A stretch of 64,000 bases of DNA from Kribbella pratensis (lineage in GTDB: Bacteria; Actinomycetota; Actinomycetes; Propionibacteriales; Kribbellaceae). Position 1 is the stretch's first letter, and every line of letters starts with the position of its first letter. The notes beneath the pieces are model-generated. The model ran no database searches. It was not told the DNA's origin and saw only the letters and a list, made by a program, of their open reading frames with translations. Of the stretch, positions 19,276 through 56,396 are shown piece after piece. Where the stretch lies: positions 2,177,473 through 2,241,472 of the forward strand of contig NZ_SODP01000001.1 of NCBI RefSeq assembly GCF_004365355.1, read 5' to 3'. Position numbers and translations under genes: made by a program.

Positions 19276-20259
19276 TCAGGCCGGGTCGAGCATTTCTGGG
19301 GTCAGGTTGGCTTCGGTGTTGGGGATGCCGAGGTCGGCGGCGCGCTTGTCGGCCATGGCGAGCAGGCGGCGGATGCGGCCGGCTACTGCGTCCTTGGTGA
19401 GAGCTGGCTCGTGCAGCTGGCCGAGCTCCTCGAGGCTTGCCTGCTTGTGCTCGAGACGCAGCTTGCCCGCGATCTGCAGGTGATCGGGTACGTCGTCGCC
19501 GAGGATCTCCAGCGCCCGCTCGACGCGTGCACCGGCCGCGACCGCAGCCCGGGCGGAGCGGCGCAGGTTTGCGTCGTCGAAGTTCGCCAGCCGGTTCGCG
19601 GTCGCGCGGACCTCGCGACGCATCCGGCGCTCCTCCCACGCCAGCACCGACTCGTGCGCACCCAGCCGGGTGAGCAGCGCGCCGATGGCGTCACCGTCGC
19701 GGATCACGACGCGGTCGACGTTCCGCACCTCGCGGGCCTTCGAACCGATGCCGAGCCGCCGCGCCGCACCGACCAGAGCCAACGCCGCCTCCGGACCGGG
19801 GCACGTCACCTCGAGCGAGGACGACCGGCCGGGCTCGGTCAGCGAGCCATGCGCGAGGAACGCTCCCCGCCAGGCCGCGACGGCATCACACGAAGCGCCG
19901 GACACGACCGCCGGCGGAAGGCCTCGCACCGGTCGGCCACGGTTGTCCACCAGCCCGGTCTGCCGCGCCAACGCGTCACCGTCGCGGACCACGCGGACGA
20001 CGTACTTCGTCTGCTTGCGGATGCCGGACGGGGAAATCACCACCACGTCCGACGGGTGACCGAAGATCTCCGCGATGTCCTTGCGCAACCGCCGGGCCGC
20101 GGCGCCGCTGTCGAGCTCGGCCTCCACGACGATCCGTCCGGACACCAGGTGCAGCCCGCCCGCGAACCGCAGGATCGACGAGACCTCGGCCTTGCGGCAA
20201 CACGGTTTCGTCACCTGAATACTGGTCAGCTCGGACTTCACCTGTGCTGTCATCGCCAT
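19276..20259 (-). CDS. whiA: WhiA, DNA-binding developmental/cell-division regulator
   Basis: The 327-residue protein combines a LAGLIDADG-like N-terminal domain (starting [14 protein letters not shown]) with a C-terminal helix-turn-helix ([20 protein letters not shown] then [16 protein letters not shown]). WhiA acts with WhiB in sporulation septation in Streptomyces and is conserved in Gram-positives. ATG 20259 is chosen because GGGAGG lies 9 nt upstream and it reproduces the family N-terminus. It normally follows yvcK directly; here an inverted sigma-factor module of about 2 kb separates them, so it must have its own promoter in the 138 bp shared with the sigma gene. Confidence 0.96.
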
Positions 20260-20341
20260 GAAGGCCATCCTCCCACCCATGTCAAAGACCCTTGGACCAC
20301 CAACGGCCCCGAGCCGCCCCGGTTACGGGCATCCGGGCCGC

Positions 20342-20370
20342 TGCAACCTTCCGGCACGTTGATCGCGTTA
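20342..20370 (+). promoter_or_regulatory. Candidate ECF-type promoter of the sigma gene
   Basis: TGCAACC (20342-20348, AAC core) is followed 18 nt after the AAC by CGTTA (20366-20370), resembling ECF -35/-10 elements (AAC and CGT). The same TGCAACC(T/A)TCC string precedes the second ECF gene at 51635. Autoregulation is inferred; the spacer is slightly long. Confidence 0.35.
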
Positions 20371-20397
20371 CCCCGGCGACATTGTGAGAGGAGGCGC

Positions 20398-20904
20398 ATG
20401 AAGGCATCGGATGAAGCCGAGTTCACCGAGTTCGCCGCCGCCATGATCCGGCGGCTGCGGCGTACGGCGTACCTGATGTGCGGTGACTGGCACCGCGCCG
20501 AGGATGCCGCGCAGGACGCGTTGGTCAAGGTGTACCGCCGCTGGAACCGGATCGACCGCACGCACGGCCTGAACAGCTACGCCCACCAGTGCTTGGTCAC
20601 GTCGGTCTTCGACCAGTCCCGCAAGCCGTGGCGGCGCGAGCGGTTCGTCGACGCCGACGACCTGGACCGGATGCTGCCCGACGCGGCCGGTGTCGTCGAC
20701 GACCGGATGCTGGTCGTCGAGGCCTTGGCCGCGCTGCCACCGAGCCAACGAGCCTGCGTCGTACTGCGTCACTACGGCGATCTCAGCATCGAACAAACCG
20801 CCGCCGTCCTCGGGATCGGCGTCGGCGGCGTGAAGAGCCAGACCTCCCGAGCCCTCACCCGCCTCCGCGAACTTCTCGACCAGACCGAAAGGAGCGCCCC
20901 GTGA
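20398..20904 (+). CDS. SigE-family ECF RNA polymerase sigma factor
   Basis: The 168-residue ECF sigma factor contains region 2 (AYLMCGDWHRAEDAAQDALV then KVYRRWNRI) and region 4 (LPPSQRACVVLRHYGDLSIE then QTAAVLGIGVGGVKSQTSRA). It matches the actinobacterial SigE-family pattern in which the gene is followed by a membrane partner. GAGAGGAGG precedes ATG 20398 by 4 nt. The stop overlaps the partner's GTG as GTGA. Together the two genes are inserted, in opposite orientation, between whiA and yvcK. The inducing signal is unknown. Confidence 0.92.
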   Translation: MKASDEAEFTEFAAAMIRRLRRTAYLMCGDWHRAEDAAQDALVKVYRRWNRIDRTHGLNSYAHQCLVTSVFDQSRKPWRRERFVDADDLDRMLPDAAGVVDDRMLVVEALAALPPSQRACVVLRHYGDLSIEQTAAVLGIGVGGVKSQTSRALTRLRELLDQTERSAP

Positions 20905-22343
20905 ACAACGACATCGAACACCTGCTGGCGACCGCCGCCGACGACACCGACCGGCCGCTGAACACCGACGTCGACGACCTGCTGATCCGGGCCCGGCGTT
21001 CGGTCCGCCGAACCAGGATCGCGACCGCTTCCACCGCGGTCCTCACCACTGCGGCGATCATCGGGGGCATCGCCACCTGGTCCGCGACCCGTGACGAGAG
21101 CGCCGGCCCGGCCGGTACGCCGACGGGTCAGACCATCACGATCGACGTCAAGACCGGCCGCATCGTCGACAACGAGACCGGCAAGACAGTCGTGCCGGCG
21201 CCGCCGATGAGCCCGTTGCCGGACGCCGAGGTGCTGGACCGCTGCGCGCGCTACGACCTGGCCTACCAGCGCCTCGCCCACAGCGAGCGCAAGACCATCG
21301 ACCATGCAGGTCCGATCAACGGCCGGTGGAAGGTCCTCGTGAAGAGCGGCGACCAGTCCGTACTGAACGCCCTGCTCCTCTCGCCCGACAAGTCGATCGT
21401 CGCGACGTGCACGATGAGCGGCCCGACGAAGCCGGACAGCCTCGCCCGCTCCGGTGCGGCGACGGTCGAGGAGAGGAGCCGGTACCGGAATCCCTTGACC
21501 ATGCAGGAGGGATTCCGGGTTCCGGTGCCCGGTGTGAGCCGCGTGCTGCTCGACATCGCCGGGGAGAGCAGTCCTCGCGAGGCCCTGGTCGGAACGGACG
21601 GATATGCGACCCTCGGGCATCTCGGCAAGGACAACAAGCTCATCACGCTGAATCGCATCCGGGGCTACGACTCGAGCGGCAAGAAGGTTTACGACCAGAC
21701 GCCCAAGCCGTTCGCTGCCCCGGCCCGGACCGTCGATCCGGCGGTGACCGTCAAGACCGCGCAGGCGATCACGCCGGTGGTCGTGCTCACGAAGGAGCCC
21801 GGGACCGGGAGGCCGCTCATCGCCGCGCCACCCGTCAGTCCGCTCACCGACGAACAGGTCACCACTCGGTGCGAAGGCGTCGACGAGATCTACTTCAAGG
21901 ATCTCGACAAGGGCGGCGTGAACACCGACGACGCAGTGATCAAGGCCGCCGGACCCATCTCGCGGGCGTGGCAGGTGGCGCTCAAGACCGGCACCGGCGA
22001 CAAGCTGACGGCCTTGCTGATCTCGCCGGACAAGCGCGTGTTCGCGTGGTGTCACATGCTGACGCCGACGGCCAAGGGTGCGTACGACTACACCCGCGGC
22101 GCGGTCCAGGCCGACGGGAAGTTCGCGAAGTCGCCCGACTTCGCGATGGTTCCCGACGGGGTCGCGCAGATCGTCGTCGACCTGCCGGCAGGACCGACGC
22201 GGGCACTGATGTCGAACGGCTTCTTCATCTGGGGCCTGACCGGCGGGAACTCCAACGTTAAGAGCGTCCGGGTGCACGGGTACGACGCCGAGGGCAAGCA
22301 GATCTACAACCAGCCCATGGACCTGGACGTCGACTTCGACTAG
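20901..22343 (+). CDS. Single-pass membrane partner of ECF sigma factor, two tandem extracytoplasmic domains
   Basis: The 480-residue protein has a short cytoplasmic N-terminus (1-43, with DDLLIRARRSVRRTRI), one membrane helix (about 44-60) and an outside region with two similar domains. Domain 1 spans about 98-268 (APPMSPLPDAEVLDRC, Cys115, Cys170, IRGYDSSGKKVY). Domain 2 spans about 308-471 (APPVSPLTDEQVTTRC, Cys324, Cys384, VHGYDAEGKQIY). The layout suggests an anti-sigma or sensor protein for the preceding sigma factor, but I see no zinc-binding anti-sigma HxxxCxxC motif. A related single-domain protein occurs at 52285. The 3' end shares the palindromic stop CTAG (22340-22343) with yvcK. 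Confidence 0.8.
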   Translation: MNNDIEHLLATAADDTDRPLNTDVDDLLIRARRSVRRTRIATASTAVLTTAAIIGGIATWSATRDESAGPAGTPTGQTITIDVKTGRIVDNETGKTVVPAPPMSPLPDAEVLDRCARYDLAYQRLAHSERKTIDHAGPINGRWKVLVKSGDQSVLNALLLSPDKSIVATCTMSGPTKPDSLARSGAATVEERSRYRNPLTMQEGFRVPVPGVSRVLLDIAGESSPREALVGTDGYATLGHLGKDNKLITLNRIRGYDSSGKKVYDQTPKPFAAPARTVDPAVTVKTAQAITPVVVLTKEPGTGRPLIAAPPVSPLTDEQVTTRCEGVDEIYFKDLDKGGVNTDDAVIKAAGPISRAWQVALKTGTGDKLTALLISPDKRVFAWCHMLTPTAKGAYDYTRGAVQADGKFAKSPDFAMVPDGVAQIVVDLPAGPTRALMSNGFFIWGLTGGNSNVKSVRVHGYDAEGKQIYNQPMDLDVDFD

Positions 22344-23368
22344 CTGAAAATCTCGCGGTAGACCTTCGCCAGCTTGTCCGGGGCGTGGTGCAGCTCCTGT
22401 TCGTCGTCGGCGATATCGGCGATCACCAGCTCGGCCCCGAGGGATTCCGCCGTACGGCGGAGTGACTCGGGGTCGGGCACGTGGCCGGTGTCGGCGAGGA
22501 CGACGTCGATCCGCAGGTCGGGGGCGTGCGCGGCCAGCACCTCGAGGTGGGTCTCGGGCGAGAAGCCGTCGGTCTCGCCCTTCTGCTCCCCCAGGTTCAG
22601 CGTGAGGAGCCGGCGGGCACTGGTCAGCTCGAGACCGCGGCAGAGCTCGGGGACCAGCAGATTCGGGATCACGGACGTGAACCACGAGCCCGGGCCGACC
22701 ACGACCCAGTCGGCCTCCGCGATGGCGACGAGTGCCTCCGGGCACGCGGGCGGGTCGGCCGGGTCGAGCGCGACGTCGACCACGTGCCCCTCGGTCGTCG
22801 CCACCTCGGCCTGACCGCGGATCTCGGTGATCGCCTCGGGATGGGCCGGATCGAGCCCGAGCACCCGCGCGGTGATATCGAGCGGTACTGAGGACATCGG
22901 CAGCACCCGCCCTTGTGCACCGAGCAATCGCGCGACCCAGTCGAGTCCGTCGACCGCCTCGCCGAGCAGCTCCCACAACGCGACGATCAGCAGGTTGCCG
23001 ACCGCGTGGTCGTGCAGCTCACCGTTGCTGCGGAAGCGATGCTGCAGTACGTCGGCCCACGTGCGGCCCCACTCGTCGTCGCGGCACAACGCGGCCAGCG
23101 CCATCCGCAGATCACCCGGAGGCAGTACGCCGAGCTCCTGGCGCAGCCGCCCGGACGAGCCGCCGTTGTCGGCGACCGTGACGACCGCGGTCAGCTGGTC
23201 GGTGACGTGACGAAGCGCGGAGAGAGAGGCAGCCAAGCCGTGTCCCCCGCCAAGTGCTACGACCTTGGGAGACGGGCGGGGGTCTGAGGGTCGCCCCCCA
23301 GAGGAAACATCAGAGCGCTCAGGCCCGTGCTCTTCGCGGGCAGAGCTGTCCCAAGCGTTCTGGGTCAC
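22340..23368 (-). CDS. yvcK: YvcK/CofD-like gluconeogenesis factor
   Basis: The 342-residue protein has the GGGHGLAASLSALRHV nucleotide-binding start, VTVADNGGSSGRLRQELGVL, the NGELHDHAVGNLLI segment and VVVGPGSWFTSVIPNLLVPE, all diagnostic for the YvcK (CofD-like, 2-phospho-L-lactate transferase fold) family. YvcK binds UDP-sugars and is needed for cell-wall growth and carbon metabolism in Gram-positives. The GTG start overlaps the rapZ stop as GTGA. Residues 1-33 are a variable extension. It is the third gene of uvrC-rapZ-yvcK. Confidence 0.94.
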   Translation of the reverse strand: MTQNAWDSSAREEHGPERSDVSSGGRPSDPRPSPKVVALGGGHGLAASLSALRHVTDQLTAVVTVADNGGSSGRLRQELGVLPPGDLRMALAALCRDDEWGRTWADVLQHRFRSNGELHDHAVGNLLIVALWELLGEAVDGLDWVARLLGAQGRVLPMSSVPLDITARVLGLDPAHPEAITEIRGQAEVATTEGHVVDVALDPADPPACPEALVAIAEADWVVVGPGSWFTSVIPNLLVPELCRGLELTSARRLLTLNLGEQKGETDGFSPETHLEVLAAHAPDLRIDVVLADTGHVPDPESLRRTAESLGAELVIADIADDEQELHHAPDKLAKVYREIFS

Positions 23369-24231
23369 TCCCGCCCCAGATCACGATGTACCACCAACGT
23401 CGGTGAGCCCTTCTCGCGCAGCCTCCGGGCGATCTCCTCGGCCATCGCGACGCTGCGGTGCTTTCCCCCGGTGCAGCCGATCGCGACGGTGACGAAGCGC
23501 TTGCCCTCGTTCAGGTAGCCGCTCCGCAAGGTGTCCAGCACGTCCACGTAGTTCTGCAGGAACTGCTGGGCCAGCGGATGGCCGAGCACGAAGTCTGACA
23601 CAGGCTTGTCCTGGCCGGTCATCGGGCGGAGGTCCGGCTGCCAGTACGGGTTCGGGATGAAGCGCATGTCGGCGACCACATCGGCGTCGACCGGGATGCC
23701 GTACTTGAACCCGAACGACACCACAGTCGCGCGCAGCTCGGCGTTCTCCTCGTCGCCGAACGCGTTCACGATCTTCGCGGCGAGCTGGTGGATGTTCAGG
23801 CTCGACGTGTCGATGACCAGGTCGGCGCCGGCCCGGATGTCGCCGAGCAGCTCGCGCTCGCGCTGGATGCCGTCGAGCAGCCGGCCCTCGCCCTGCAGCG
23901 GGTGCGGCCGGCGGACACTCTCCTGCCGGCGCACGATCACATCGTCGGACGCCTCCAGGAACAGCGTCAGCGGGCGGTACCCCTTCAGCCGCAGGTCGTG
24001 GATGGCCGAGCTCAGCTCCTCGAAGAACAGGCCGGTCCGGACGTCGACCACGACCGCGAGCCGCGGCGCCGCGCCGGTGCCGATGACCTGCTCGACGAGC
24101 GTGGTCAGGAACATCGGCGGCAGGTTGTCCACGACGAACCAGCCGAGGTCTTCCAGTACGTCGGCGACGGAGCTTCGTCCCGCGCCGGACATGCCGGACA
24201 CGATGATGAGGTTGCCGCCCGTGTCGTCCAT
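23365..24231 (-). CDS. rapZ: RNase adapter RapZ / nucleotide-binding protein YvcJ
   Basis: The 288-residue protein has a Walker A loop IIVSGMSGAGRSSVADVLED at residues 9-28, a Walker B-like FLEASDDV, and the conserved C-terminal domain (FVLGHPLAQQFLQNYVDVLD then VTVAIGCTGGKHRSV). It hydrolyses nucleotides; in E. coli RapZ regulates GlmS sRNA, while actinobacterial copies have a less defined role. ATG overlaps the uvrC stop (TGATG) and the 3' end overlaps yvcK, implying tight translational coupling in the operon. Confidence 0.95.
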   Translation of the reverse strand: MDDTGGNLIIVSGMSGAGRSSVADVLEDLGWFVVDNLPPMFLTTLVEQVIGTGAAPRLAVVVDVRTGLFFEELSSAIHDLRLKGYRPLTLFLEASDDVIVRRQESVRRPHPLQGEGRLLDGIQRERELLGDIRAGADLVIDTSSLNIHQLAAKIVNAFGDEENAELRATVVSFGFKYGIPVDADVVADMRFIPNPYWQPDLRPMTGQDKPVSDFVLGHPLAQQFLQNYVDVLDTLRSGYLNEGKRFVTVAIGCTGGKHRSVAMAEEIARRLREKGSPTLVVHRDLGRE

Positions 24232-26276
24232 CAGTTCTCAGTTCTCCCTGGGTCCCCGTCGGCCAAATCCGTTGACGACAGTCCGGCCGGCGCCGGGACG
24301 TCGTCGCCCAGTATCTCGCCCGTGGCCGTGTTGACCGACGGTGCCCGGCCGGTTTCCGCCTTCGTTGCGGCAGCGTTAACCGCCAGTACGACCGACTCCG
24401 CCAGCCGCGGCCCGAATCCGGGGAGACTCGCCACCTCGTCGACGGTGGCCTGACGCAACTTCTTCAGCGAGCCGAAATGACGCAGCAGCGTCTTGCGCCG
24501 CACCTCGCCGAGACCGGGGACCTCGTCGAGCGTGCTCTCGACCATCGACTTCGATCGCCGGCTGCGGTGGTGTGTGATCGCGAACCGGTGCGCCTCGTCC
24601 CGCAGTCGCTGCAGGAGGTACAGGCCTTCCGACGTACGGGAGAAGATGACCGGGTCCTCCTCGTCGGGGAGCCAGACCTCCTCGAGCCGCTTGGCGAGAC
24701 CGCAGACCGGGATGTCGCCGAGCCCCAGCTCGTCCATCGCCTGGCGGGCCGCGGCAACCTGGGGCGGACCACCGTCGACCACGACGAGCCCCGGCGCGTA
24801 GGAGAACTTCTTCGCTCGCCCGGTCTCGGGGTCGATCAGCGCGCCGTTCGGGTCGTCGTCCCCGGTCATCGTGGCGCGCTCGTCGAGGAGGCGTTTGAAG
24901 CGGCGGGTGAGGACCTCGGCGATCGAGGCGACGTCGTTCTGGCCGTCGACGCCCTTGATCACGAACCGCCGGTACTCGCTCTTGCGGGGCAGGCCGTCCT
25001 CGAACACGACCATCGAGGCGACCACCTCGGTGCCTTGCAGGTTGGAGACGTCGTAGCACTCCAGCCGCAGCGGCGCCTCGGGCAGGTCGAGCCCGGCCTG
25101 GATCTCCTCGAGCGCCTGGTTGCGGGTGGTCAGATCGCTGGCCCGCTTGGTCTTGTGCATGGTCAGCGTCTGCAGCGCGTTCCGCTCGACGGTCTCCATC
25201 AGCGCCTTCTTGTCGCCGCGCTGCGGGACCCGGATCGACACCCGCGCGCCGCGGATCCCCTCCAGCCACTGGGTCAGCGCGTCGGCGTCCTCCGGCATCG
25301 TCGGGACCAGGATCTCGCGCGGGATCGCGTCGACCGAGTCGTCGGCGTACATCTGCTGGATGAAGCGCGAGACGAGATCGCCGGTGGTTGCCGTGCCGTC
25401 GGCTTTGTCGGCGATCCAGCCGCGCTCACCGCGGATCCGCCCGCCACGGACGTAGAAGATCTGCACGGCGACTTCGAGCGGGTCCTCGCTCAGCGCAATC
25501 ACGTCGGTGTCGGTGCCGTCGCCGAGAACCACGGCGTTCTTGGCCAGCGCCTTCTCCAGCGCGGCCAGGTCGTCGCGGATCTTCGCGGCCCGCTCGTACT
25601 CCAGCTCGGCCGCCGCGGCCTTCATCTCCTTCTCCAGCCGGCGCACGTACGTCGCGGTCTGGCCGGACAGGAACGCCGCGAAGTCCTCGACGATCTGGCG
25701 ATGCTCCTCCTGGCTCACCTGCCCGGTGCAGGGCGCGGCGCATTTGCCGATGTACCCGAGCAGGCAGGGCCGGCCGATCTGGCGGTGCCGGTTGAAGACG
25801 CCCTTGCTGCACGAGCGCATCGGGAACACCCGCAGCAGCAGGTCGACGGTCTCGCGGATCGCCCAGGCGTGGCTGTACGGACCGAAGTACTTCACGCCCT
25901 TCTTCTTCTGACCTCGGCCGACCATCACCCGCGGGTACTCCTCGTTGAGGGTGATGGCGAGCCACGGGTACGACTTGTCGTCGCGGTACTTCACGTTGAA
26001 GCGCGGGTCGTACTCCTTGATCCAGGAGTACTCCAGCTGGAGCGATTCGACCTCGCTGGCGACCACGGTCCACTCGACCTTCGAGGCCGTCGTCACCATC
26101 GCCTGCGTCCGCGGGTGCAGGTTCACCAGATCCTGGAAGTACGACGACAACCGGGCCCGCAGGTTCTTCGCCTTGCCGACGTAGATGACCCGCCCGGCGG
26201 AGTCGCTGAAACGGTAGACGCCGGGTGAGTCGGGGATCGATCCCGGAGCGGGACGGTACGAGGACGGATCAGCCAC
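24231..26276 (-). CDS. uvrC: Excinuclease ABC subunit C
   Basis: The 681-residue UvrC makes both incisions in nucleotide excision repair. It has the GIY-YIG nuclease domain ([20 protein letters not shown], then [11 protein letters not shown]), a UVR helical hairpin around [20 protein letters not shown], an RNase H-like endonuclease domain ([33 protein letters not shown]) and C-terminal helix-hairpin-helix motifs ([16 protein letters not shown]). The GTG start at 26276 lies 6 nt after the -10 box of a strong DNA-damage-type promoter and is leaderless. It is the first gene of the uvrC-rapZ-yvcK operon. Confidence 0.97.
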
Positions 26277-26282
26277 CCAACC

Positions 26283-26305
26283 ACCCTAGTTCGGGTCGCC
26301 GACAA
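26283..26305 (-). promoter_or_regulatory. RecA-independent DNA-damage (PafBC-type) promoter of uvrC
   Basis: Reading the minus strand: TTGTCGGCG (26305-26297), 8 nt, TAGGGT (26288-26283), then 6 nt to the GTG start of uvrC. The published mycobacterial consensus for the RecA-NDp promoter is TTGTCRGTG-N8-TANNNT; this copy differs at one base only. Confidence 0.8.
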
Positions 26306-30098: not shown

Positions 30099-33131
<3,033 letters not shown>

Positions 33132-33178
33132 AAGCTCACTCTCAGCCGTTCTCGAGGGTATCCGGGGCATGCCCCGTC

Positions 33179-33201
33179 ATGCTAACGAGGCCCACCGACA
33201 A
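33179..33201 (-). promoter_or_regulatory. RecA-independent DNA-damage (PafBC-type) promoter of uvrA
   Basis: On the minus strand: TTGTCGGTG (33201-33193), 8 nt, TAGCAT (33184-33179). This is a perfect match to TTGTCRGTG-N8-TANNNT. The predicted transcript start near 33172 lies 2 nt before the ATG at 33170 and about 41 nt before the GTG at 33131. Confidence 0.85.
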
Positions 33202-33243: not shown

Positions 33244-33259
33244 TCGAAAGTATATTCGA
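33244..33259. promoter_or_regulatory. Degenerate LexA (SOS)-box-like palindrome
   Basis: TCGAA (33244-33248), six bases AGTATA, TTCGA (33255-33259). The actinobacterial SOS box is TCGAAC-N4-GTTCGA; both inner C/G positions differ here. It lies between the uvrA promoter and the divergent MBL gene, 43 bp upstream of the uvrA -35 element. Confidence 0.3.
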
Positions 33260-46121: not shown

Positions 46122-46766
46122 CTAGAGCAAGCCTGCGTGGTCCAACGCGAGATAGGCCGCATCAATTCCGGTCATCGCACCCGGCGTGCGCAGCTCGGCA
46201 CGGAACGCGTCCACGGACAGCTCGACCGGCACGCAGTCCTCGGCCTCGTCCAGCTGCTGCTTGCCGTCCGGGCGGCAGCCGCGCGCGATCGCGACGTACT
46301 TGCGGAACGTCGACGAGGCGCCGGACCACTGCCAGCCGACGACGTCGAGCGTCTCGCAGGTGTAGCCGGTCTCTTCCTCGAGCTCCCGCGCGCCGGCAAC
46401 GGCCACGTCCTCTTCGGGCTCGACCAGACCGCCCGGGAGGTTCGTGACCACGCTGTCGGGGCCGGCGCGGAACATCCGGATCGTGACGATCCGGCCCTCC
46501 GGGGTCAGCGGCAGGACGGTGATCCCGGACGTGATGCCGGCCTCCGGCCCGAAGACGTCCCACTCGACCTCGCGGCCGTCGGGCATCCGGTAGCGCCGCA
46601 GCCGGACGGTGAGGAAACGCTGGAAGCCTGGCTCCTCGCCGAGCAACTCCCACGGAGCGGGATCGGCGGGCCGAGACGACACCCGAGACGACCCTTGAGA
46701 CGGCCCGTGAGACGGCTCAGCCGCCACGTTGTCGGTGACGGCTGAGGTCTCGTGCTGGTCCGTCAC
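46122..46766 (-). CDS. NUDIX hydrolase (ADP-ribose pyrophosphatase-like)
   Basis: The 214-residue protein has a disordered Ser/Pro-rich N-terminus (about 1-35) encoded by a short imperfect DNA repeat, then a NUDIX fold with the full Nudix box [24 protein letters not shown] (Gx5Ex7REUxEExGU). [20 protein letters not shown] and [19 protein letters not shown] complete the fold. It probably hydrolyses a nucleoside diphosphate linked to a sugar. GTG 46766 overlaps the prcA stop as GTGA, so it is translationally coupled to the proteasome alpha subunit, an uncommon neighbour. Confidence 0.9.
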
Positions 46767-47614
46767 AGGGGACGGTTGTCGTCGGGATCTTCCGGCGGAG
46801 CGATCGGTGCATCATCCGCCGGCGGGGCGACCGGTGTGTCGCCGTCCGACGCGCCGGTCTCCGCCGTGTCCGTCTTCTCGCCCGCGTCGGCCGGCTCAGT
46901 GGCCTCCTCGGCGGGGCGGGACTCGGACAGGATGCGGGCCAGCGTCTCCTCGGAGATCCGCTTGAACTTGCGCACCTGGGTCCGGGTCCGGTCGAGCACC
47001 GCGACCTCGAGCTGGTCCGGGGTCAGCTGCCGGACCTCGGTGCCGTCGTGGCCGAGAGCATCGACCGCGAGCCGGAGCGCACCCGCGAGCGAGATGCCCT
47101 CGGAGTAGTGCTCGCCGATGTAGTCCGCGACCTGGTCGGCCGGGCCGCCCATCACGGCGTACCCCTGCACGTCGGCGATCGAGCCGTCGTACGTGAGCCG
47201 GTAGACCTGGTCGTCGGCCGGGGCCGCGCCGATCTCGGCGACCAGGATCTCGACCTCGAGCGGCTTCTCGCCGCCGGAGGAGAAGATCGCGCCGAGCGTC
47301 TGCGCGTACGCGTTGGCCAGCGCCCGGCCGGTGACGTCACGCCGGTCGTAGGAGTACCCGCGCATGTCGGCCAGCCGCACGCCGGCGATCCGCAGGTTCT
47401 CGAACTCGTTGTACCGGCCGACGGCGGCGAACGCCATCCGGTCGTAGATCTCGGCCACCTTGTGCAGCGCGGGCGAGCGGTTCTCGGCCACGAACAGGAT
47501 GCCGTCGGCATATTGCAGCGCGATCGCGCTGCGGCCCTTGGCGATGCCTTTCCGGGCGAAGTCGGCCCGGTCCCGCATCAGCTGCTCGGGCGAGACGTAG
47601 AACGGAACGCTCAT
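46763..47614 (-). CDS. prcA: 20S proteasome alpha subunit
   Basis: The 283-residue PrcA forms the outer rings of the 20S core that gate substrate entry. The N-terminus [20 protein letters not shown] is the actinobacterial gate sequence, followed by [40 protein letters not shown] and [20 protein letters not shown]. The tail (from about 240) is acidic and Pro/Asp-rich, low complexity. It follows prcB by 37 bp. Cognate regulators arc, dop and pup lie upstream on the same strand; pafA is absent from the window. Confidence 0.97.
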
Positions 47615-47651
47615 CGAAGGTGTCGTCCTCTTATCAGTCGAAAGGCGGGGA

Positions 47652-48506
47652 TCAGGTCAGGGACGTCGCGGCCGGGCCGTCGGGACGCCGGTGCCGTTGG
47701 CTCCAGGCCGCGTCGACGAGCGCCGCCACCTCGTCCTCCGGCAGCCGCCGGTAACCGTCCGCGGTGACCACGCCGACCACCGGGAAGATGCGCCGGAGCA
47801 TGTCCGGGCCGCCGGTCGCCGAGTCGTCGTCGGCCGCGTCGATCAGCGACTGGATCATCACCGTCACGCAGTCGGTCTCGGACAGGTCCTCGCGGTACAG
47901 CTTCTTGAGCGCGCCGCGGGCGAACAACGAGCCCGAGCCGACGCTGTAGAAGTGGGTCTCCTCGTACCGACCGCCGGTCGGGTCGTAGGAGAAGATCCGG
48001 CCGGCGTTGATGTCGTGGTCGTACCCCGCGAACAGCGGCACCACGGTCAGGCCCTGCATCGCCATCGGCAGGTTGCCGCGGATCAGCGCGCTGAGCCGGT
48101 TGGCCTTGCCGTCGAGGCTCAGTGTCGCGCCCTCGAGCTTCTCGTAGTGCTCCAGCTCGACCTGGAACAACCGGACCATCTCGATCCCGAAGCCGGCCGA
48201 GCCGGCGAACGCGACCGCCGAGTACTCGTCGGCCGGGAACACCTTCTCGATGTCACGCTGGGCGATGATGTTGCCCATCGTGGCCCGCCGGTCGCCGGCC
48301 ATGATCACGCCACCGGGGAAGGTGGCCGCCACGATCGTCGTACCGTGCGGGACTTCGCTGGACAGGTCGCCCGACCCCAGGGCCCGTCGTCCCGGCAACA
48401 GGTCGGGCGCATGCCCGGCCAGGAAGTCCATGAACGACGAGCCACCTGGGGTCAGGAAGGCTTCCGGCAACCGGCCGGAGGCATCAGAAGTCATCGAGCG
48501 GTTCAC
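47652..48506 (-). CDS. prcB: 20S proteasome beta subunit
   Basis: The 284-residue proprotein of the catalytic subunit. The propeptide (1-55) ends at PHG and the mature enzyme begins with the nucleophile Thr56 ([20 protein letters not shown]). [31 protein letters not shown] and [14 protein letters not shown]-like [20 protein letters not shown] are conserved. GTG 48506 is chosen because it overlaps the pup stop as GTGA and has AAGGGTGGGG upstream; ATG 48494 (MTSDASGRL) is an alternative four codons inside. Confidence 0.96.
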
Positions 48507-48712
48507 TCCCCACCCTTTTGCACGAATCCGCGGACGAACTCCTCGGCGTTCTCCTCGAGCACCTCGTCGATCTCGTCCAGGATCGAGTCGACGTCCTCGT
48601 CGAGTCGCTCTTTGCGCTCCTGGACGTCCTCGGACGCCTCGACCTGCTCGACCTCTTCCTCGGTCGACGAACGCTTGGACTGCTTGTGCTGCTGTCCACC
48701 GTCTTTCGCCAT
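48503..48712 (-). CDS. pup: Prokaryotic ubiquitin-like protein Pup (C-terminal GGE)
   Basis: The 69-residue modifier starts [20 protein letters not shown] and ends [13 protein letters not shown]. It is intrinsically disordered, with the ARC-binding central helix [20 protein letters not shown]. Because the last residue is already Glu rather than Gln, it can be ligated to substrate lysines without prior Dop deamidation. ATG 48712 has GGAGG about 8 nt upstream; an ATG three codons earlier is too close. Order dop-pup-prcB-prcA is standard. Confidence 0.97.
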
Positions 48713-48789
48713 GACACACACCTCCTAGAACCGCCGACTGCGTCGGACGCCCAACCGACCCTCCGCAGTGCTTTCTCTATATGGCGACC

Positions 48790-50310
48790 CTACCCGGCGG
48801 CGCCCCCAGTAATGGTGCGAACCAGGTCACTGGCGGTGTCGCATTGGTCAAGAAGTGCGCCGACATGCGCTTTGGTGCCCCGCAACGGGTCCAGCGTCGG
48901 GATCCGTTGCAGTGACTCCTTACCCGGCAGATCGAAGATCACCGAGTCCCAGGAGGCAGCCGCGACCTGCGGTGCGTACTGCTGCATGCAGCGGCCGCGG
49001 AAGTACGCCCGGGTGTCGGTCGGCGGGTGCGCGACCGCCATCCGGATCTCCTCGTCGGTGACGATCCGCTGCATCCGGTTGGATTTCACCAACCTGTAAT
49101 ACAGGCCCTTGTCCGGGCGCAGGTCGGCGTACTGCAGGTCGATCAGGTGCAGCTTCGGGTCGTCCCACTCGAGGCCGTCGCGGTCGCGGTACTGCTGGAG
49201 CAGTTTGTACTTCGCGACCCAGTCGAGCTGGTCGGACAGTTTCATCGGGTCGATCGCGAGCTGGTCGAGGATCTGCTCCCACCGGTGCAGCACGTCCTTG
49301 GTCTGCCGGTCCGCGTCGTCGCCGTACTTGTCCTCGACGTACTTGCGGGCCTGTTCCAGGTACTCCGCCTGCAGCTGGACGGCGGTGATCTTGCGGCCGT
49401 CCTTCAATGTGAGCAGGTGCGTGCAGGACGCGTCGTGGCTGACCTCGTGCAGCGCGGACACCGGACGGTCGACACCCAGGTCGTCGGTCAGCCAGCCGTC
49501 CTCGATCATCGCGAGCACGAGCGACGTCGTACCGACCTTGAGGTACGTCGAGATCTCGGACAGGTTCGCGTCGCCGATGATCACGTGCAGCCGGCGGTAC
49601 CGATCCGGATTCGCGTGCGGCTCGTCGCGGGTGTTGATGATCGGGCGCTTCAGCGTCGTCTCCAGGCCGACCTCGACCTCGAAGTAGTCGGCCCGCTGGC
49701 TGATCTGGAAGCCGTGCGCCGCGCCGTCCTGGCCGATACCGACCCGGCCGGCGCCGGTGACCACCTGACGGCTGACGAAAAACGGCGTCAGGTGCCGCAC
49801 GATCGACGCGAACGGCGTGGACCGGCGCATCAGGTAGTTCTCGTGCGAGCCGTACGACGCGCCCTTGTTGTCGGTGTTGTTCTTGTACAGGTTCAGCTGG
49901 GGGGCGCCGGGGATCAGCCGGGCCTGGCGCGCGCCCTCCATGATCACCAGCTCGCCGGCCTTGTCCCAGACCACCGCGTCCCGCGGGTTCGTGGTCTCCG
50001 GAGCGGAGTACTCCGGGTGGGCATGGTCGACGTACAACCGGGCGCCATTCGTGAGGATCACGTTCGCCAGGCCGGTCTCCTCGTCGGTGAGCTGGCTGGA
50101 GTCCGCCACCTCCCGGCTCAGATCGAAACCTCGCGCGTCACGTAGCGGGTGCTCCTCGTCGAAGTCCCACCGCGTCTTGCGCGCGAGCGGCTGCGTCTGC
50201 GCGTAGCCGTTCACCACCTGGCTCGAGGTCAGCATCGGGTTGGCCCCGGGCTGGCCCGGCACCGAGATCCCGAACTCGGTCTCGGTACCCATGATCCGCC
50301 GAACACTCAT
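48790..50310 (-). CDS. dop: Deamidase/depupylase of Pup
   Basis: The 506-residue Dop belongs to the carboxylate-amine ligase (glutamine-synthetase-like) superfamily. It starts [20 protein letters not shown] (ATP/Mg glutamates) and has the catalytic-Asp strand [40 protein letters not shown] and [20 protein letters not shown]. It removes Pup from proteins and can deamidate Pup-Gln. The segment around residues 42-80 corresponds to the Dop loop. The transcript is predicted to be leaderless: TAGGCT (50323-50318), 7 nt, ATG 50310. It leads dop-pup-prcB-prcA. Confidence 0.97.
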
Positions 50311-50396
50311 GCGAACGAGCCTACGCGGTACCGACGACTAAAGGGGTTGCTGTGTCCACAGGGTTACGTGTGCCGCCCATATGTGAGACTGCGCGC

Positions 50397-50897
50397 GTGG
50401 ACGAATTGGTGGCGATCCTGGACGACGACAACCAGGTCACCGGAGCCGTGCCACGGTCGGTGATGCGGCGCGACAACCTGCGGCATTCCGCCACCGGCGT
50501 AGTCGTCCGGAATACGGCCGGCGAGATCTACGTGCACCGCCGTACGCCGATCAAGGACGTTTACCCGAGCCATTACGACTTCTCCGCCGGCGGAGTCGTC
50601 GCGGCCGGTGAGGACCCCTTCCACGCCGTCGTACGGGAGTTGGAGGAGGAGCTCGGGATCTCAGGCGTCGAGCTGACCCGGTTGCCGGAGGGCGACTACG
50701 CCGACGACCACACGCGCTACCACGCGTACCTGTACACCTGCGTCTGGGACGGCCCGGTGCGGCACCAGCCGGAGGAAGTCGAGTGGGGTGCGTGGATGTC
50801 CCCCGCCGAGCTTGTCGCCAAGCTGGACGACCCCTCGTGGCCGTTCATGCCGGACGCGGTCGGCCTGCTCGGTGCGTACGTCCGGAGCCTGGTGTGA
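50397..50897 (+). CDS. NUDIX hydrolase (YfcD / isopentenyl-PP isomerase-like)
   Basis: The 166-residue NUDIX-fold protein has IYVHRRTPIKDVYPSHYDFS followed by AGGVVAAGEDPFHAVVRELE EELGI, a complete Nudix box. The pattern resembles YfcD-type hydrolases and type 1 IPP isomerases, although the isomerase Cys/Trp residues are not evident. GTG 50397 is preceded 6 nt by GAGACT and is probably leaderless. Longer starts run into the dop promoter. The stop overlaps the following phosphotransferase start as GTGA. Confidence 0.85.
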   Translation: MDELVAILDDDNQVTGAVPRSVMRRDNLRHSATGVVVRNTAGEIYVHRRTPIKDVYPSHYDFSAGGVVAAGEDPFHAVVRELEEELGISGVELTRLPEGDYADDHTRYHAYLYTCVWDGPVRHQPEEVEWGAWMSPAELVAKLDDPSWPFMPDAVGLLGAYVRSLV

Positions 50898-51634
50898 CGA
50901 TCCTCGAGGGCTGGGACAGCGAGGCGTGGATCGAGGGTCCGTGGATCCACCGATCCCCGCGACGGCCCGCGGTGCGGCCGCGCCTGCTGGCCGAGGCGAC
51001 GCTCCTCCCCTGGCTCGCTCCCCAACTACCTCTGCCGGTCCCGGTGCCTGAGCTGACAGACAACGGCGTACGGCACCTGATGCTCCCCGGCTCACCCTTC
51101 ACCAACGGCGGTACGGCGATCGGCCGCGAGCTGGGCGCCTTCCTCAAGGCCCTGCACGGCGTGGACCCGGTCGAAGCGGTCGCTCGCGGCGCTCTGGACG
51201 CCGCCACAGCGGATGCGGAGAAGGCGAGCTTCCTGGAGGACTGCAGGACGCAGATCGTGCCGCTGCTCCCCGCAGAGGCCCGGACTCGAGCACTGGAGTT
51301 GCTCGCCCGCGTGGCCCGCGTCCGCACGTCGCTCATCCATTGCGACCTCGGCCCCGATCACATCCTCATGACCGACGGCCGGATCACCGGCATCATCGAC
51401 TGGACCGACGCAGTGATCGGCGACCCCGCCCTGGACCTGTGCTGGCCCCTCACCGGCGCCCCAGCTGCCGTCCAAGCCGGTCTGCTGGAGGTCTACCAAC
51501 CCACCCCTCACCAGGTCGAACGCGCTCACGACTGGGCTCGCCTCTCCCCCTGGTACGGCGTCCACCGCGGCCTGCTCATCGACCTGCCCGACGACGTCAC
51601 GGACGGGCTGCGAGACATCCTGAACCGGCTCTGA
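50894..51634 (+). CDS. Aminoglycoside/choline-kinase-like phosphotransferase
   Basis: The 246-residue kinase-fold protein has the catalytic loop LIHCDLGPDHILM and the Mg-binding IIDWTDAVIGDPALDLCWPL. In the HxDxxxxN pattern the Asn is His here, a variant also found in macrolide-phosphotransferase-like proteins. The N-lobe is short (WDSEAWIEGPWIHRSPRRPA). It probably phosphorylates a small molecule; a resistance role is not shown. It is translationally coupled to the Nudix gene upstream (GTGA overlap), and its stop directly abuts the promoter-like box of the next sigma gene. Confidence 0.85.
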   Translation: MTILEGWDSEAWIEGPWIHRSPRRPAVRPRLLAEATLLPWLAPQLPLPVPVPELTDNGVRHLMLPGSPFTNGGTAIGRELGAFLKALHGVDPVEAVARGALDAATADAEKASFLEDCRTQIVPLLPAEARTRALELLARVARVRTSLIHCDLGPDHILMTDGRITGIIDWTDAVIGDPALDLCWPLTGAPAAVQAGLLEVYQPTPHQVERAHDWARLSPWYGVHRGLLIDLPDDVTDGLRDILNRL

Positions 51635-51661
51635 TGCAACCATCCATCCGGTGGCCGGTCA
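51635..51661 (+). promoter_or_regulatory. Candidate ECF-type promoter of the second sigma gene
   Basis: TGCAACCATCC begins directly after the phosphotransferase stop (51635). The AAC core (51638-51640) is followed after 15 nt by CGGTCA. The element matches TGCAACCTTCC upstream of the ECF gene at 20398 in 10 of 11 positions. Confidence 0.35.
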
Positions 51662-51706
51662 CTAGAGAGTGTGAAGATCACCCTGACTGACGATACGGAG
51701 CCGGCC

Positions 51707-52285
51707 ATGGCGACGGGGTCCGACCAGGAGCTCTGGGAGCGGTTGCGCGTCGGGGACCATTTCGCACTCGGCGAGCTGTTCGACCGGTACGCGGACGACG
51801 TACGGGCGTTCGCGTTCCGGCGTACGGCCTCGTGGAGCACTGCCGACGACGTGGTCCAGTCGACGTTCCTGAGCACCTGGCGGCGCTTCCAGCGCAATCC
51901 ACCGGGCCCACTGACCGCCCCTAGCGCTCGCGGCTGGCTGCTCGTCGTGGCCGGCAACGAGTGCCGGGCGCTGGCCCGTACGGCGGCCAGGATGCGCAAC
52001 CTGCTCACCCACCTGCCCGACCCGGTACCGGACCACGATCATGCGCCCGACGTCGCCCGCCGCCTGGACGACGAACGCCGGATGTCGGCGATCCGTCGCG
52101 CCGTGGCCGAACTCCCCCGGCACGAACGCGAGACGCTCGAGCTCGTCGTCTGGTCCGGACTCACCACAGCCGAGGCCGCGGACGCTCTCGGCGTACCGGT
52201 CGGAACTGTCAAGGCCCGGCTGCACCGCACCCGCCGCCGTTTCCCCGACCTGCTGAGCCGGGTCGCCCTCACCGAGGAGCTGTGA
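51707..52285 (+). CDS. ECF-type RNA polymerase sigma factor
   Basis: The 192-residue ECF sigma factor has region 2 in LGELFDRYADDVRAFAFRRT then ASWSTADDVVQSTFLSTWRR, and region 4 in LPRHERETLELVVWSGLTTA then EAADALGVPVGTVKARLHRT. ATG 51707 has GGAG 6 nt upstream; GTG 51671 in the same frame is possible but has a poor ribosome site. The stop overlaps the next ATG (TGATG). It is not very close in sequence to the SigE-family factor at 20398, although the partner proteins share a domain. Confidence 0.88.
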   Translation: MATGSDQELWERLRVGDHFALGELFDRYADDVRAFAFRRTASWSTADDVVQSTFLSTWRRFQRNPPGPLTAPSARGWLLVVAGNECRALARTAARMRNLLTHLPDPVPDHDHAPDVARRLDDERRMSAIRRAVAELPRHERETLELVVWSGLTTAEAADALGVPVGTVKARLHRTRRRFPDLLSRVALTEEL

Positions 52286-53067
52286 TGAACGTCCGACTCG
52301 ACCCGCCGCCCGTCCCCCCGCTCGACCCGGCGCGGCGCGCGCAGCTTCGCAACCGGATCATGGACAAGTCACGCCCGGCCGGCCATCACCGCGCCCCGCG
52401 CTGGATCGCTCCGGCGGTCAGTATCGCGGCCGTGGCGGCCGTTGTGGCCGGCACGCTCGTCGTCAGCAACCGTCCGTCCGACGGTCCCCCGGTCGCCGGC
52501 ACTGCGACGGCGGCGGCGCCGACCTCGAGCAGTCTCGGAGCTGTGACCGACGCCGAGGCTACCGCCGCCTTCGTGAAGTCGTGCGAACCTCGCCTGCACC
52601 GCGAGCTGAAGCAACCGCTCACGGTCGTCTGGGCGCGGCGGGTGCCGGGCAAGACGTCGAAAGCCACCGACATCCTGATGATTGTCAAGGGCTCCGGAGC
52701 CCCAGGTATCGCATCCTGCCTGGCCCCATCCGGAGGCGGCATGTGGCAGAAGGATCCGTCGGGCTGGACCGATCTGCCGACACAGAAGCAAGGCCTCGCA
52801 AGCCTGATCGGTGGCACTTCCTCGACGTCGGAGCCGAAGCCGGAGTCCCGGATCTGGACGCTCTACCGGGCCCGCCCGGAGATCGCCCGGGTCGAATCGC
52901 GCTACGTCTCGAACGGCACCGTCGGGCCGTGGCAACCCGGTTACGTCGACAGCGGCTACGCCTACACGGACAACCGGGCGGACAAGGTGCTCACCGCCAG
53001 CAGCCTGCGCCAGCAGGTGCGGGCGTACGACGCCCATGGCCGGCTGCTGCCGATCGAGCTCAAGTAG
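52285..53067 (+). CDS. Single-pass membrane partner of ECF sigma factor, one extracytoplasmic domain
   Basis: The 260-residue protein has a cytoplasmic start with ARRAQLRNRIMDKSR, one membrane helix (about 41-60, IAPAVSIAAVAAVVAGTLVV), a Ser/Thr/Ala linker and an outside domain with Cys100 (DAEATAAFVKSC), Cys145 (GIASCLAPSGGG) and the ending VRAYDAHGRLLPIELK. The Cys...Cys...(R)xYDxxG order and spacing match each of the two domains in the partner protein at 20901. It probably senses or restrains its sigma factor. Translation is coupled to the sigma gene with GAGGAG upstream. Confidence 0.8.
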   Translation: MNVRLDPPPVPPLDPARRAQLRNRIMDKSRPAGHHRAPRWIAPAVSIAAVAAVVAGTLVVSNRPSDGPPVAGTATAAAPTSSSLGAVTDAEATAAFVKSCEPRLHRELKQPLTVVWARRVPGKTSKATDILMIVKGSGAPGIASCLAPSGGGMWQKDPSGWTDLPTQKQGLASLIGGTSSTSEPKPESRIWTLYRARPEIARVESRYVSNGTVGPWQPGYVDSGYAYTDNRADKVLTASSLRQQVRAYDAHGRLLPIELK

Positions 53068-53073
53068 CGCGGA

Positions 53074-53412
53074 TCAGCGGCGGCGGGACATGGTGCGGGC
53101 GACGTTGATCGCGATCAGGCCGAACCAGGCGATGACCACGCCGAACGGGCCGACCATGCCGGCCGCGATCGCGGTGATCGGGATGGCCGCGACGATCGAC
53201 ACGATCGCCAGCGCCAGCCCGCCGGGGTCGGTCTCGCGGCTGGGGTGGCGTCGCGGGGCGGCCTCGGCGTACGGGCCGACGCGTCGCTGGACATCCCGGG
53301 CATCGAGCTTCTCCAGGAAGCTGTCGATGATCTCGTTCTCGTACTCCGGCCCCAGCTCCTGCCGAGCCGCCACCGCGGCCCGCAGGTCCTTCCGCACCTC
53401 ATCCGTTGCCAT
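53074..53412 (-). CDS. Small two-helix membrane protein
   Basis: The 112-residue protein has a soluble charged N-terminal half (VRKDLRAAVAARQELGPEYE, then NEIIDSFLEKLDARDVQRRV) followed by two hydrophobic segments (GLALAIVSIVAAIPITAIAA and GPFGVVIAWFGLIAINVAR). This resembles many actinobacterial integral membrane proteins of unknown function whose N-terminus looks like a short regulatory helix pair. It is convergent with the sigma-partner gene (6 bp apart) and separated from arc by a strong terminator, so it has its own promoter upstream. Confidence 0.75.
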   Translation of the reverse strand: MATDEVRKDLRAAVAARQELGPEYENEIIDSFLEKLDARDVQRRVGPYAEAAPRRHPSRETDPGGLALAIVSIVAAIPITAIAAGMVGPFGVVIAWFGLIAINVARTMSRRR

Positions 53413-53528
53413 GACAGCAAGCTAAGTCCGCCGGACCGCCGTACCAATCGGGGAAACCCCCCGATCGCACCGGGAGTTTTACCTACCCCCGCGCGGCCTG
53501 GCGGCCCTGGCGCGGCCCGGTGGCAGAA

Positions 53529-53565
53529 CGAACCGCCCCTGGACGCTCGGTCCAGGGGCGGTTCG
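53529..53565 (-). terminator. Hairpin terminator of arc
   Basis: CGAACCGCCCCTGGAC (53529-53544), loop GCTCG, GTCCAGGGGCGGTTCG (53550-53565): a perfect 16-bp stem beginning 8 nt after the arc stop codon. Confidence 0.9.
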
Positions 53566-53572
53566 CGGTGTC

Positions 53573-55312
53573 CTACAGGTACTGACCGGTGTTGGTCGCG
53601 GTGTCGATCGAGCGGCCTGGCTCGGTGCCCTGCTTGCCGGAGATGAGCGTCCGGATGTAGACGATCCGTTCGCCCTTCTTGCCGGAGATGCGGGCCCAGT
53701 CGTCCGGGTTGGTGGTGTTCGGCAGGTCCTCGTTCTCCTTGAACTCGTCCACGCAGGCCTGGAGCAGGTGCTGCACCCGCAGGCCCTTCTGGTTCTCGTC
53801 CAGGAAGGCCTTGATCGCCATCTTCTTCGCCCGGTCGACGATGTTCTGGATCATCGCGCCCGAGTTGAAGTCCTTGAAGTACAGGACCTCCTTGTCACCG
53901 TTCGCGTAGGTGACCTCGAGGAAGCGGTTCTCGTCGGCCTCGGTGTACATCCGCTCGACCGTGCGCTGGATCATGCCGTCCACGCACGCCTGCCGGTCGC
54001 CGCCGAACTCGCCTAGGTCGTCCTCGTGCAACGGCAGTCCGCTGGTCAGGTACTTCGAGAAGATGTCCCGGGCCGCCTCCGCATCGGGGCGCTCGATCTT
54101 GATCTTCACGTCCAGCCGGCCGGGCCGCAGGATCGCGGGGTCGATCATGTCCTCGCGGTTGGAGGCGCCGATGACCAGGACGTTCTCGAGGCCCTCGACA
54201 CCGTCGATCTCGCTCAGCAGCTGCGGAACGATGGTGTTCTCCACGTCCGAGGACACACCGGATCCGCGGGTGCGGAACAGCGAGTCCATCTCGTCGAAGA
54301 ACACGATCACCGGCATACCCTCGGAGGCCTTCTCCCGGGCCCGCTGGAAGACCAGGCGGATGTGCCGCTCGGTCTCACCGACGTACTTGTTCAGCAGCTC
54401 GGGGCCCTTGATGTTCAGGAAGAACGACTTCTGGCCCTCGGTCCCGGTCCGCTCGGCGACCTTCTTGGCCAGCGAGTTCGCCACCGCCTTGGCGATCAGC
54501 GTCTTGCCGCAGCCGGGCGGGCCGTAGAGCAGCACGCCCTTCGGCGGCTTCAGCTCGTGCTCGAGGAACAGGTCCTTGTGCAGGTACGGCAGCTCGACCG
54601 CGTCCCGGATCTGCTCGATCTGGCCGGTCAGGCCGCCGATCTGGGTGTAGTCGATGTCCGGGACCTCTTCGAGGATCAGCTCCTCGACCTCGGACTTCGG
54701 GATCTTCTCGTACACATACCCGGAGCGGGCCTCGAGCAGCAGCGAGTCGCCGGCCCGCAGCGGCACGTCGAGCAGCGGCGACGCGAGCCGCACCACCCGT
54801 TCCTCGTCCGCCTGCGCGATGACCAGCGCCCGCTCGCCGTCGGCGAGCAGCTCCTTCAGCATCACCACGTCACCGACGACCTCGAACTCGCAGGCCTCGA
54901 CCACGTTGAGTGCTTCGTTCAGCATCAGTTCCTGGCCGAGCCGGAGCGCGTCCAGGTCCACCGACGGGCTCGCCGCGACCCGGAGTTTCCGGCCACCGGT
55001 GAACACGTCCAGCGTGTCGTCTTCATTGCGTCCGAGGAAGGTGCCGAATCCGGACGGCGGTTGCGCCAGCCGGTCGACCTCCTCCTTCAGGGCGATGATC
55101 TTCTCTCGCGCCTCCCGCAGCGTGTCGGCCAGCCGCTCGTTCTGAGCGGTGACACTCGCCAAGGAAGCCTGTGTTTCGGACAGCCTGCTCTCGAGCGACC
55201 GGCTGTCTGCCGGGTGCTCGAGCAGCCGCCGTCGCAACGCCGCGACTTCGGCTTCCAGGTACCGGACCTGGTTACGCAGTTCTGCCGCGGTAGGACTCTC
55301 GTCTCCAGCCAC
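53573..55312 (-). CDS. arc: AAA+ proteasome-activating ATPase ARC (Mpa)
   Basis: The 579-residue hexameric unfoldase captures pupylated proteins and feeds the 20S core. An N-terminal coiled coil ([20 protein letters not shown] and [20 protein letters not shown]) binds Pup, followed by two OB folds (about 85-230) and the AAA domain with [19 protein letters not shown] and [12 protein letters not shown]. The C-terminal TNTGQYL is the proteasome-docking tail. GTG 55312 has GAGG at 8-nt spacing; ATG 55318 and GTG 55321 are close alternatives. It lies downstream of trmI on the same strand and about 3.3 kb from dop. Confidence 0.97.
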
Positions 55313-55387
55313 GATCATCACCTCACCATGTGGGGCTCGACCCTATGGACCTTACCCAGAAAACCTCGCCGGGCAAGCTGAATCCCA

Positions 55388-56356
55388 TCACGTGTCGGTT
55401 GCGGATGAACCAGTTGCCTTCGGCATGTCGTCGGTTGATTCCGAACGGGCCTCTTCGCGACGAGGCCCGAGGTAGTCGTCGCCGTACGCGCCGGGCGCGG
55501 GGCGTCGCTTCTTCCGGGGTGCCTGCACCCCGTGCGCCATCCTTCGTGCTGTGACCAGGAAGGCGGTGTGACCTTGCATCCGGTGGCCCGGACGAACCGC
55601 AAGGCCTTCTACATGCCAGTCTCGCACGAGAGACTCCCACGCGCGCGGCTCGGTGAACTCGCCGTGTGCCCTCAGCGTCTCCACGAAGCGGCTCAGCTGC
55701 GTCGTGGTGGCCACGTAGGCGCAGAACACCCCACCGGGCGAAAGAGCCTCAGCGACGACGTCAACGCACTCCCACGGCGCGAGCATGTCGAGCACGACGC
55801 GGTCCACGTCCTGCTCGTTCAGCTTCTCGACCAGGTCACCGACCTCGAGCCGCCAGGCCGGGTGCTCGCCGCCGAAGAAGCCGGTCACGTTCTTCCGCGC
55901 GACCTCCGCGAAGTCCTCGCGGCGCTCGAACGAGATCACCTGCCCGTGGATCCCGACCGCCCGCAACAGAGCCGTGGTCAGCGCGCCGGAGCCGGCTCCC
56001 GCCTCGACCACCTTGGCACCCGGGAAGATGTCGGCCATCGTCACGATCTGCGCCGTGTCCTTGGGGTAGATCACCGCCGCACCGCGCGGCATCGAGACCG
56101 AGTAGTCGGCCATCAGCGGACGCAGCGCCAGGTACTCGACGCCGCCCTTCGACTTGATCACGACCGCGTCCGGGCCGTCGATCAGGTCGTCGTGCGCGAT
56201 CCCGCCCTTGGTGGTGTGGAAGATCTTCCCGCGCTCCAGGTTGACCGAGTGCCGGCGGCCCTTCGAGTCCTGCAGGGTGATCCACTCGCCCTCCTGCAGC
56301 GGTCCGTGATGGACCCCGGAGAACGCCTGGTCGGGAAAGTCACGCAAGTCAGCCAT
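55388..56356 (-). CDS. trmI: tRNA (adenine-N1)-methyltransferase TrmI (m1A58)
   Basis: The 322-residue methyltransferase installs m1A58 in tRNA. The N-terminal barrel has GEWITLQDSKGRRHSVNLER, then the Rossmann SAM site VVEAGAGSGALTTALLRAVG, RREDFAEVARKNVTGFFGG and the catalytic VVLDMLAPWECVDV. It has a basic C-terminal extension of about 45 residues (APRKKRRPAPGAYGDDYLGP). The position beside arc, with a RecB-family gene on the other side, matches the mycobacterial arrangement (mpa, trmI, recB-like), supporting synteny. Confidence 0.95.
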   Translation of the reverse strand: MADLRDFPDQAFSGVHHGPLQEGEWITLQDSKGRRHSVNLERGKIFHTTKGGIAHDDLIDGPDAVVIKSKGGVEYLALRPLMADYSVSMPRGAAVIYPKDTAQIVTMADIFPGAKVVEAGAGSGALTTALLRAVGIHGQVISFERREDFAEVARKNVTGFFGGEHPAWRLEVGDLVEKLNEQDVDRVVLDMLAPWECVDVVAEALSPGGVFCAYVATTTQLSRFVETLRAHGEFTEPRAWESLVRDWHVEGLAVRPGHRMQGHTAFLVTARRMAHGVQAPRKKRRPAPGAYGDDYLGPRREEARSESTDDMPKATGSSATDT

Positions 56357-56396
56357 AAGGCGCTCACCTTAACTTTCGGTCACCGCAACCGAGTAA

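Follow-up and report, generated by a model that had tools for sequence, protein, structure and literature searches.

Three DNA repair genes lie downstream of sequences matching TTGTCRGTG-N8-TANNNT, the consensus of mycobacterial RecA-NDp promoters, in the window, a 64,000-nt stretch of the Kribbella pratensis genome (Table 1). The initial annotation had described a full match at uvrA and copies with one mismatch each in front of uvrC and of a gene for a RecB-family nuclease (hereafter, recB). All three are indeed present, the uvrA site being on the minus strand, which had gone unmentioned, and the genes had been named correctly: UvrC and PD-(D/E)XK domains were recognised by Pfam, and UvrA by its translated sequence. 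Two further window matches with two mismatches, at positions 37083 and 41402, lack an intact TANNNT box.

At each of the three sites, the initial annotation had overlooked a start codon located 6-8 nt after the -10 box: 6 nt at uvrC and recB and 8 nt at the upstream ATG of uvrA. Downstream of uvrC and on the same strand are rapZ, a CofD-family gene and whiA; if the four genes (window positions 19276-26276) are co-transcribed, damage control of uvrC might reach the developmental regulator WhiA.

Table 1. Features of the uvrC, uvrA and recB loci (window coordinates)
Feature	Position	Strand	Remarks
whiA	19276-20280	-	downstream of uvrC, same strand (Pfam)
CofD-family gene	22340-23368	-	downstream of uvrC, same strand (Pfam)
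rapZ	23365-24231	-	downstream of uvrC, same strand (Pfam)
uvrC	24231-26276	-	Pfam UvrC domain
Predicted RecA-NDp promoter of uvrC, TTGTCGGCG-N8-TAGGGT	26283-26305	-	one mismatch; 6 nt before GTG start
uvrA coding sequence	30099-33131	-	to 33170 if upstream ATG used; UvrA from translated sequence
GTG start of UvrA	33129-33131	-	behind Shine-Dalgarno-like GAGAGTGAG; conserved start
Near-leaderless ATG of uvrA	33168-33170	-	8 nt past -10 box, in frame, +13 residues
Predicted RecA-NDp (PafBC-type) promoter of uvrA	33179-33201	-	full match TTGTCGGTGGGCCTCGTTAGCAT
uvrA -10 box TAGCAT	33184-33179	-	
uvrA -26 box TTGTCGGTG	33201-33193	-	followed by 8-nt spacer
Palindrome-like box TCGAAAGTATATTCGA, LexA/SOS-box candidate	33244-33259	.	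two mismatches to TCGAAC-N4-GTTCGA
Predicted RecA-NDp promoter of recB, CTGTCGGTG-N8-TAGGGT	57695-57717	+	one mismatch; 6 nt before ATG
RecB-family PD-(D/E)XK exonuclease, Rv2119-like	57724-58611	+	Pfam PF12705

Genome-wide motif search and predicted targets

Five matches with at most two mismatches were counted in the window, compared with a mean of 1.83 in shuffled versions of it, and 5 of 100 shuffles reached five; the count within the window alone is barely above chance. Since the shuffles are not compelling, the case for the motif rests on the genome and on its relatives. The Kribbella genome (8.37 Mb on six contigs) was searched by pattern, instead of by a full matrix scan, allowing a limited number of mismatches to the consensus and using the reversed pattern as a control. 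Six perfect sites were found. Sites with at most one mismatch numbered 53 versus nine with the reversed pattern, and a relaxed motif combined with a start codon 4-9 nt downstream retrieved 38 sites versus three. A chance origin of the motif, for which the window shuffles alone leave room, is excluded by these counts, as is a random genome-wide density, which the initial annotation had named as the finding that would speak against it. In 60 genomes of the class, too, the motif greatly outnumbered its reversed control. On viral contigs, at least 120 stretches with the motif stand against 46 for a control that used one of three gap lengths, so that no enrichment can be claimed there. In genomes G173 and G156, several copies per genome of a dispersed hairpin repeat, TTGTCGGTGCCCGCCCGTAGGGTGGG...CCGGGCGGG, contain a full match to the RecA-NDp consensus.

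The predicted targets in Kribbella, some of which are single predictions of a pattern whose hits are estimated to be false in 3 of 38 cases, include the nucleotide-excision genes uvrA, uvrB, uvrC and uvrD. Further repair genes, assigned by Pfam and sequence, code for the PD-(D/E)XK RecB, RarA/MgsA, an SbcD-like phosphoesterase, DinB, Ada-AlkA and SRAP proteins; nucleases and helicases are represented by a DnaQ-GIY-YIG protein, a second DnaQ-like exonuclease and an SNF2 helicase. NUDIX proteins, ClpP, aldo/keto reductases, luciferase-like enzymes and an XRE-MmyB regulator were also retrieved. Six DUF222 genes, most of them with HNH (L028, L067, L107, L117, L366 and L367), have RecA-NDp promoters of the leaderless type, and several motif sites in other genomes of the class look like those of the Kribbella DUF222 genes.

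Adjacent pafB and pafC genes were found on contig C5 (G000:C5:49147-51071), with WYL, WCX and HTH_PafC domains (1.2e-39 for the PafC HTH) and with FKBP and GNAT genes as neighbours. They are thus away from the Pup-proteasome genes: the proteasomal ATPase, the proteasome subunits and a Pup-ligase family protein are encoded in the window. Many other actinomycetes have recB and a strong PafC match on one contig, within ca. 15-35 kb of each other; in Kribbella, pafBC is on a different contig from window positions 46763-58611. A strong PafC match was obtained in 57 of 60 class genomes, and two of the other three genomes are incomplete. The third, complete genome (G144), in which no PafC was detected, has no perfect motif, yet its recB retains a TGTCGG half-site and near-leaderless geometry; the link between the motif and PafBC therefore appears not to be exclusive. 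Kribbella recA (L400, G000:C1:1147268) has a perfect LexA box, CGAACACGTGTTCG. A RecA-NDp box was looked for at this gene and not found, and recA looks to be controlled by LexA only.

Conservation of the three sites

Of the congeneric uvrA loci, 29 of 30 in a first set and 36 of 38 overall have a perfect motif, the remaining two having one and two mismatches. Four of the five family f4 genomes also have it in perfect form. Copies in other families of the order are either perfect or degenerate, and several of them are followed by a GTG start at a distance of 6-8 nt. The signal at uvrA is a real and widely conserved switch that very likely turns on repair genes after DNA damage.

The start codon of uvrA calls for separate consideration. 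At the position of the near-leaderless ATG, a start codon is present in 29 of 38 congeners, being in frame with uvrA in nine of them and opening a short upstream ORF in 20, where it mostly stops at a TGA 13 nt ahead of the uvrA GTG. In the other nine congeners, the near-leaderless start is lost. Throughout the genus, gagaacggctgagagtgagcttGTGtct hardly varies, in contrast to the frame between the ATG and the GTG. Since conservation sits around the Shine-Dalgarno sequence and the GTG, UvrA most likely starts at the GTG at 33131, about 40 nt downstream. The ATG at 33170 was rejected as the regular start of UvrA, given its loss in nine of 38 congeners and the varying frame; a conserved leader peptide ahead of uvrA was also rejected, as only the DNA around the Shine-Dalgarno sequence and the GTG is conserved. 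The gene is an exception to the leaderless geometry described below, its near-leaderless ATG being dispensable. The near-invariant TCGAAAGTATATTCGA box sits between uvrA and a divergent gene for a metallo-beta-lactamase-fold protein.

In front of recB, which is 88% identical to recB of a named Kribbella genome, a TANNNT box ends 6-9 nt before an in-frame ATG in all 30 class-level genomes. The same box position was found in 72 of 80 loci of a named set (Kribbella, Streptomyces, Nonomuraea, Actinomadura, Nocardioides and others), with the -26 element mostly recognisable. At uvrC, the -10 geometry is better conserved than the -26 box: in the class, 27 of 30 uvrC genes have TANNNT at a distance of 6-8 nt ahead of the start, and a -26 box with at most two mismatches is recognisable in 13 of 30. 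The initial annotation had predicted a PafBC regulon with pafBC itself located outside the window. This prediction is supported by pafB and pafC on contig C5, by the enrichment of sites before repair genes, and by conservation, which for the uvrA site covers the genus and related families and for the recB site the whole class.

Start-codon geometry and predicted leaderless translation

Among Kribbella sites with at most one mismatch, those with an intact TANNNT box have a start codon 6-10 nt downstream in 20 of 24 cases. Where the box is broken, the figure is 7 of 29 (p=2e-5), and for the other genes of the window it is 5 of 30 (p=1e-6). In 91 non-redundant, perfect class sites from outside the Kribbella genome, an ATG or GTG is found at 6-8 nt in 53, compared with 5-12 of 91 in any other 3-nt window. 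Nine genomes, taken as Streptomyces since their recB is 81-90% identical to that of named Streptomyces, contain 264 sites with a start codon at 5-8 nt versus two for the reversed pattern; a start codon at 15-18 nt was found for 39 sites. The start-codon-anchored sites amount to ca. 29 per Streptomyces genome, and their targets include UvrB, RecB, RarA, DnaX, an AlkZ-like glycosylase and a DnaQ-BRCT exonuclease. According to a 2022 paper, the M. smegmatis motif seemed not to be conserved in S. venezuelae, and the existence of a RecA-independent response was left open (PMC9380542). The Streptomyces counts, obtained from nine genomes that do not include S. venezuelae, argue against non-conservation for the genus.

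Since transcription is expected to begin ca. 7 nt below the -10 box, the mRNAs should be leaderless or nearly so. For most targets, this would place the 5' end of the transcript on the start codon or no more than about 2 nt away from it, and translation would be leaderless. The RecA-NDp transcript of M. tuberculosis Rv1955 carries a leader (PMC2897130), so leaderlessness is not obligatory. About 25% of M. tuberculosis transcripts are leaderless, and leaderless translation is better sustained under stress in this organism (PMC8485053). We consider it probable that promoter geometry couples the PafBC regulon of Actinomycetes, Streptomyces included, to leaderless translation, with about 30 leaderless genes in Streptomyces. 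No statement that RecA-NDp/PafBC promoters are predominantly leaderless was found in the literature open to search; the original motif and PafBC ChIP papers lie outside that scope.

If the coupling holds, repair proteins would be made after damage without Shine-Dalgarno initiation. A connection of DNA damage with leaderless translation is suggested as well, and can be put to the test. The geometry also sharpens the finding of PafBC targets: reversed-control hits go from 9 against 53 to 3 against 38 in Kribbella, and stand at 2 against 264 in Streptomyces. The RecA-independent damage response is extended to Kribbella and Streptomyces, for which a regulon is predicted gene by gene.

Probable PafBC control, alternatives and known systems

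Taken as a whole, the data are best explained if the uvrA, uvrC and recB sites are taken as RecA-NDp-type promoters that respond to DNA damage independently of RecA, a reading that we regard as highly probable. Promoters of this class are already known, as are their regulator and their occurrence outside mycobacteria. PafBC becomes active when ssDNA is bound to its WYL domains; the -26 element is recognised by PafB, and PafC makes contact with domain 4 of σA (PMC11804915). By extension of the mechanism shown in M. smegmatis, DNA damage in Kribbella would expose ssDNA, and PafBC, a heterodimer of PafB and PafC, would be activated on binding it through its WYL domains. PafBC would then place σA RNA polymerase at the -26 element (TTGTCRGTG) and the -10 box (TANNNT), replacing the usual -35 contact, and the start codon 6-8 nt past the -10 box at most targets would lead to leaderless translation. 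The motif, its enrichment, conservation and geometry, and the presence of pafBC are read directly from the genomes; from them we infer binding, induction, the transcription start and leaderless translation. PafBC dependence and damage induction of the three genes in Kribbella are thus predictions from sequence. Mitomycin C still raises the recB-like Rv2119 and UvrA in M. tuberculosis that lacks recA (PMC8151990).

The three sites could instead be ordinary leaderless σA promoters, in which TTGTC serves as a -35-like or extended element that PafBC does not read. The uvrC data, with the -10 geometry kept in 27 of 30 genomes and the -26 box in only 13, would fit such promoters, as would the recB half-site in G144 and the fact that leaderless genes are common both in the window (5 of 30 other genes) and among M. 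tuberculosis transcripts. However, the 9-nt element is at the PafBC spacing (-29 to -21) and not at -35, it is non-palindromic and far above the reversed control in the 60 genomes and in Streptomyces, and the genes downstream are largely repair genes, which makes this explanation quite improbable. It is less probable still that ClgR, once proposed to act at the mycobacterial recA P1 promoter, reads the motif instead of PafBC: a study cited in PMC5656591 is reported there to have found ClgR recognition of the P1 region, but in later ChIP work the RecA-NDp regulator turned out to be PafBC (PMC6789036), and the structure of the PafBC-RNAP-promoter complex puts PafB on the -26 motif (PMC11804915). 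We give this proposal almost no credence.

For uvrA, one can also envisage that LexA/RecA (SOS) is the main control and the RecA-NDp box a relic. The LexA-like palindrome TCGAAAGTATATTCGA is found upstream in 29 of 30 congeneric uvrA loci, several family f3 genomes have perfect LexA boxes within the uvrA leader, and a LexA ChIP peak was reported at uvrA of S. venezuelae (PMC9380542). Yet the palindrome deviates at two positions from the SOS-box consensus and is located, in congeners, 45-80 nt further upstream than the uvrA promoter, and the RecA-NDp match is perfect in nearly all of them. Since a relic would decay and the uvrA motif has not, we hold this explanation to be very unlikely. In mycobacteria, both uvrA and uvrC have been listed among the genes under joint PafBC and SOS control (PMC8223512).

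Compared with the RecA-NDp/PafBC promoters of Mycobacterium (tTGTCRgtg-N8-TannnT), those predicted in Kribbella have the same 23-nt architecture; pafBC is present in both, and the targets overlap (uvrA, uvrC and the Rv2119-like exonuclease). Unlike in Mycobacterium, pafBC of Kribbella is away from the Pup-proteasome cluster; most Kribbella targets are predicted to be leaderless, a pattern not met with in the literature searched. The recA gene of M. tuberculosis has dual promoters, whereas that of Kribbella has a LexA box without a RecA-NDp box. The same promoter class has been reported outside mycobacteria, for recA of S. rimosus and SCO6735 of S. coelicolor (PMC5087735); in contrast to those reports, a genus-wide predicted regulon with start-codon-anchored sites is described here. 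The actinobacterial LexA SOS box (TCGAAC-N4-GTTCGA), present at Kribbella recA, also serves repair genes and damage control, but it is a palindromic repressor site, whereas the uvrA, uvrC and recB motif is a non-palindromic promoter of the activator type. DriD, the WYL activator of Caulobacter, compared here by its description in the literature, likewise senses ssDNA and is RecA-independent, but is a homodimer acting at different promoters, whereas PafBC is a heterodimer.
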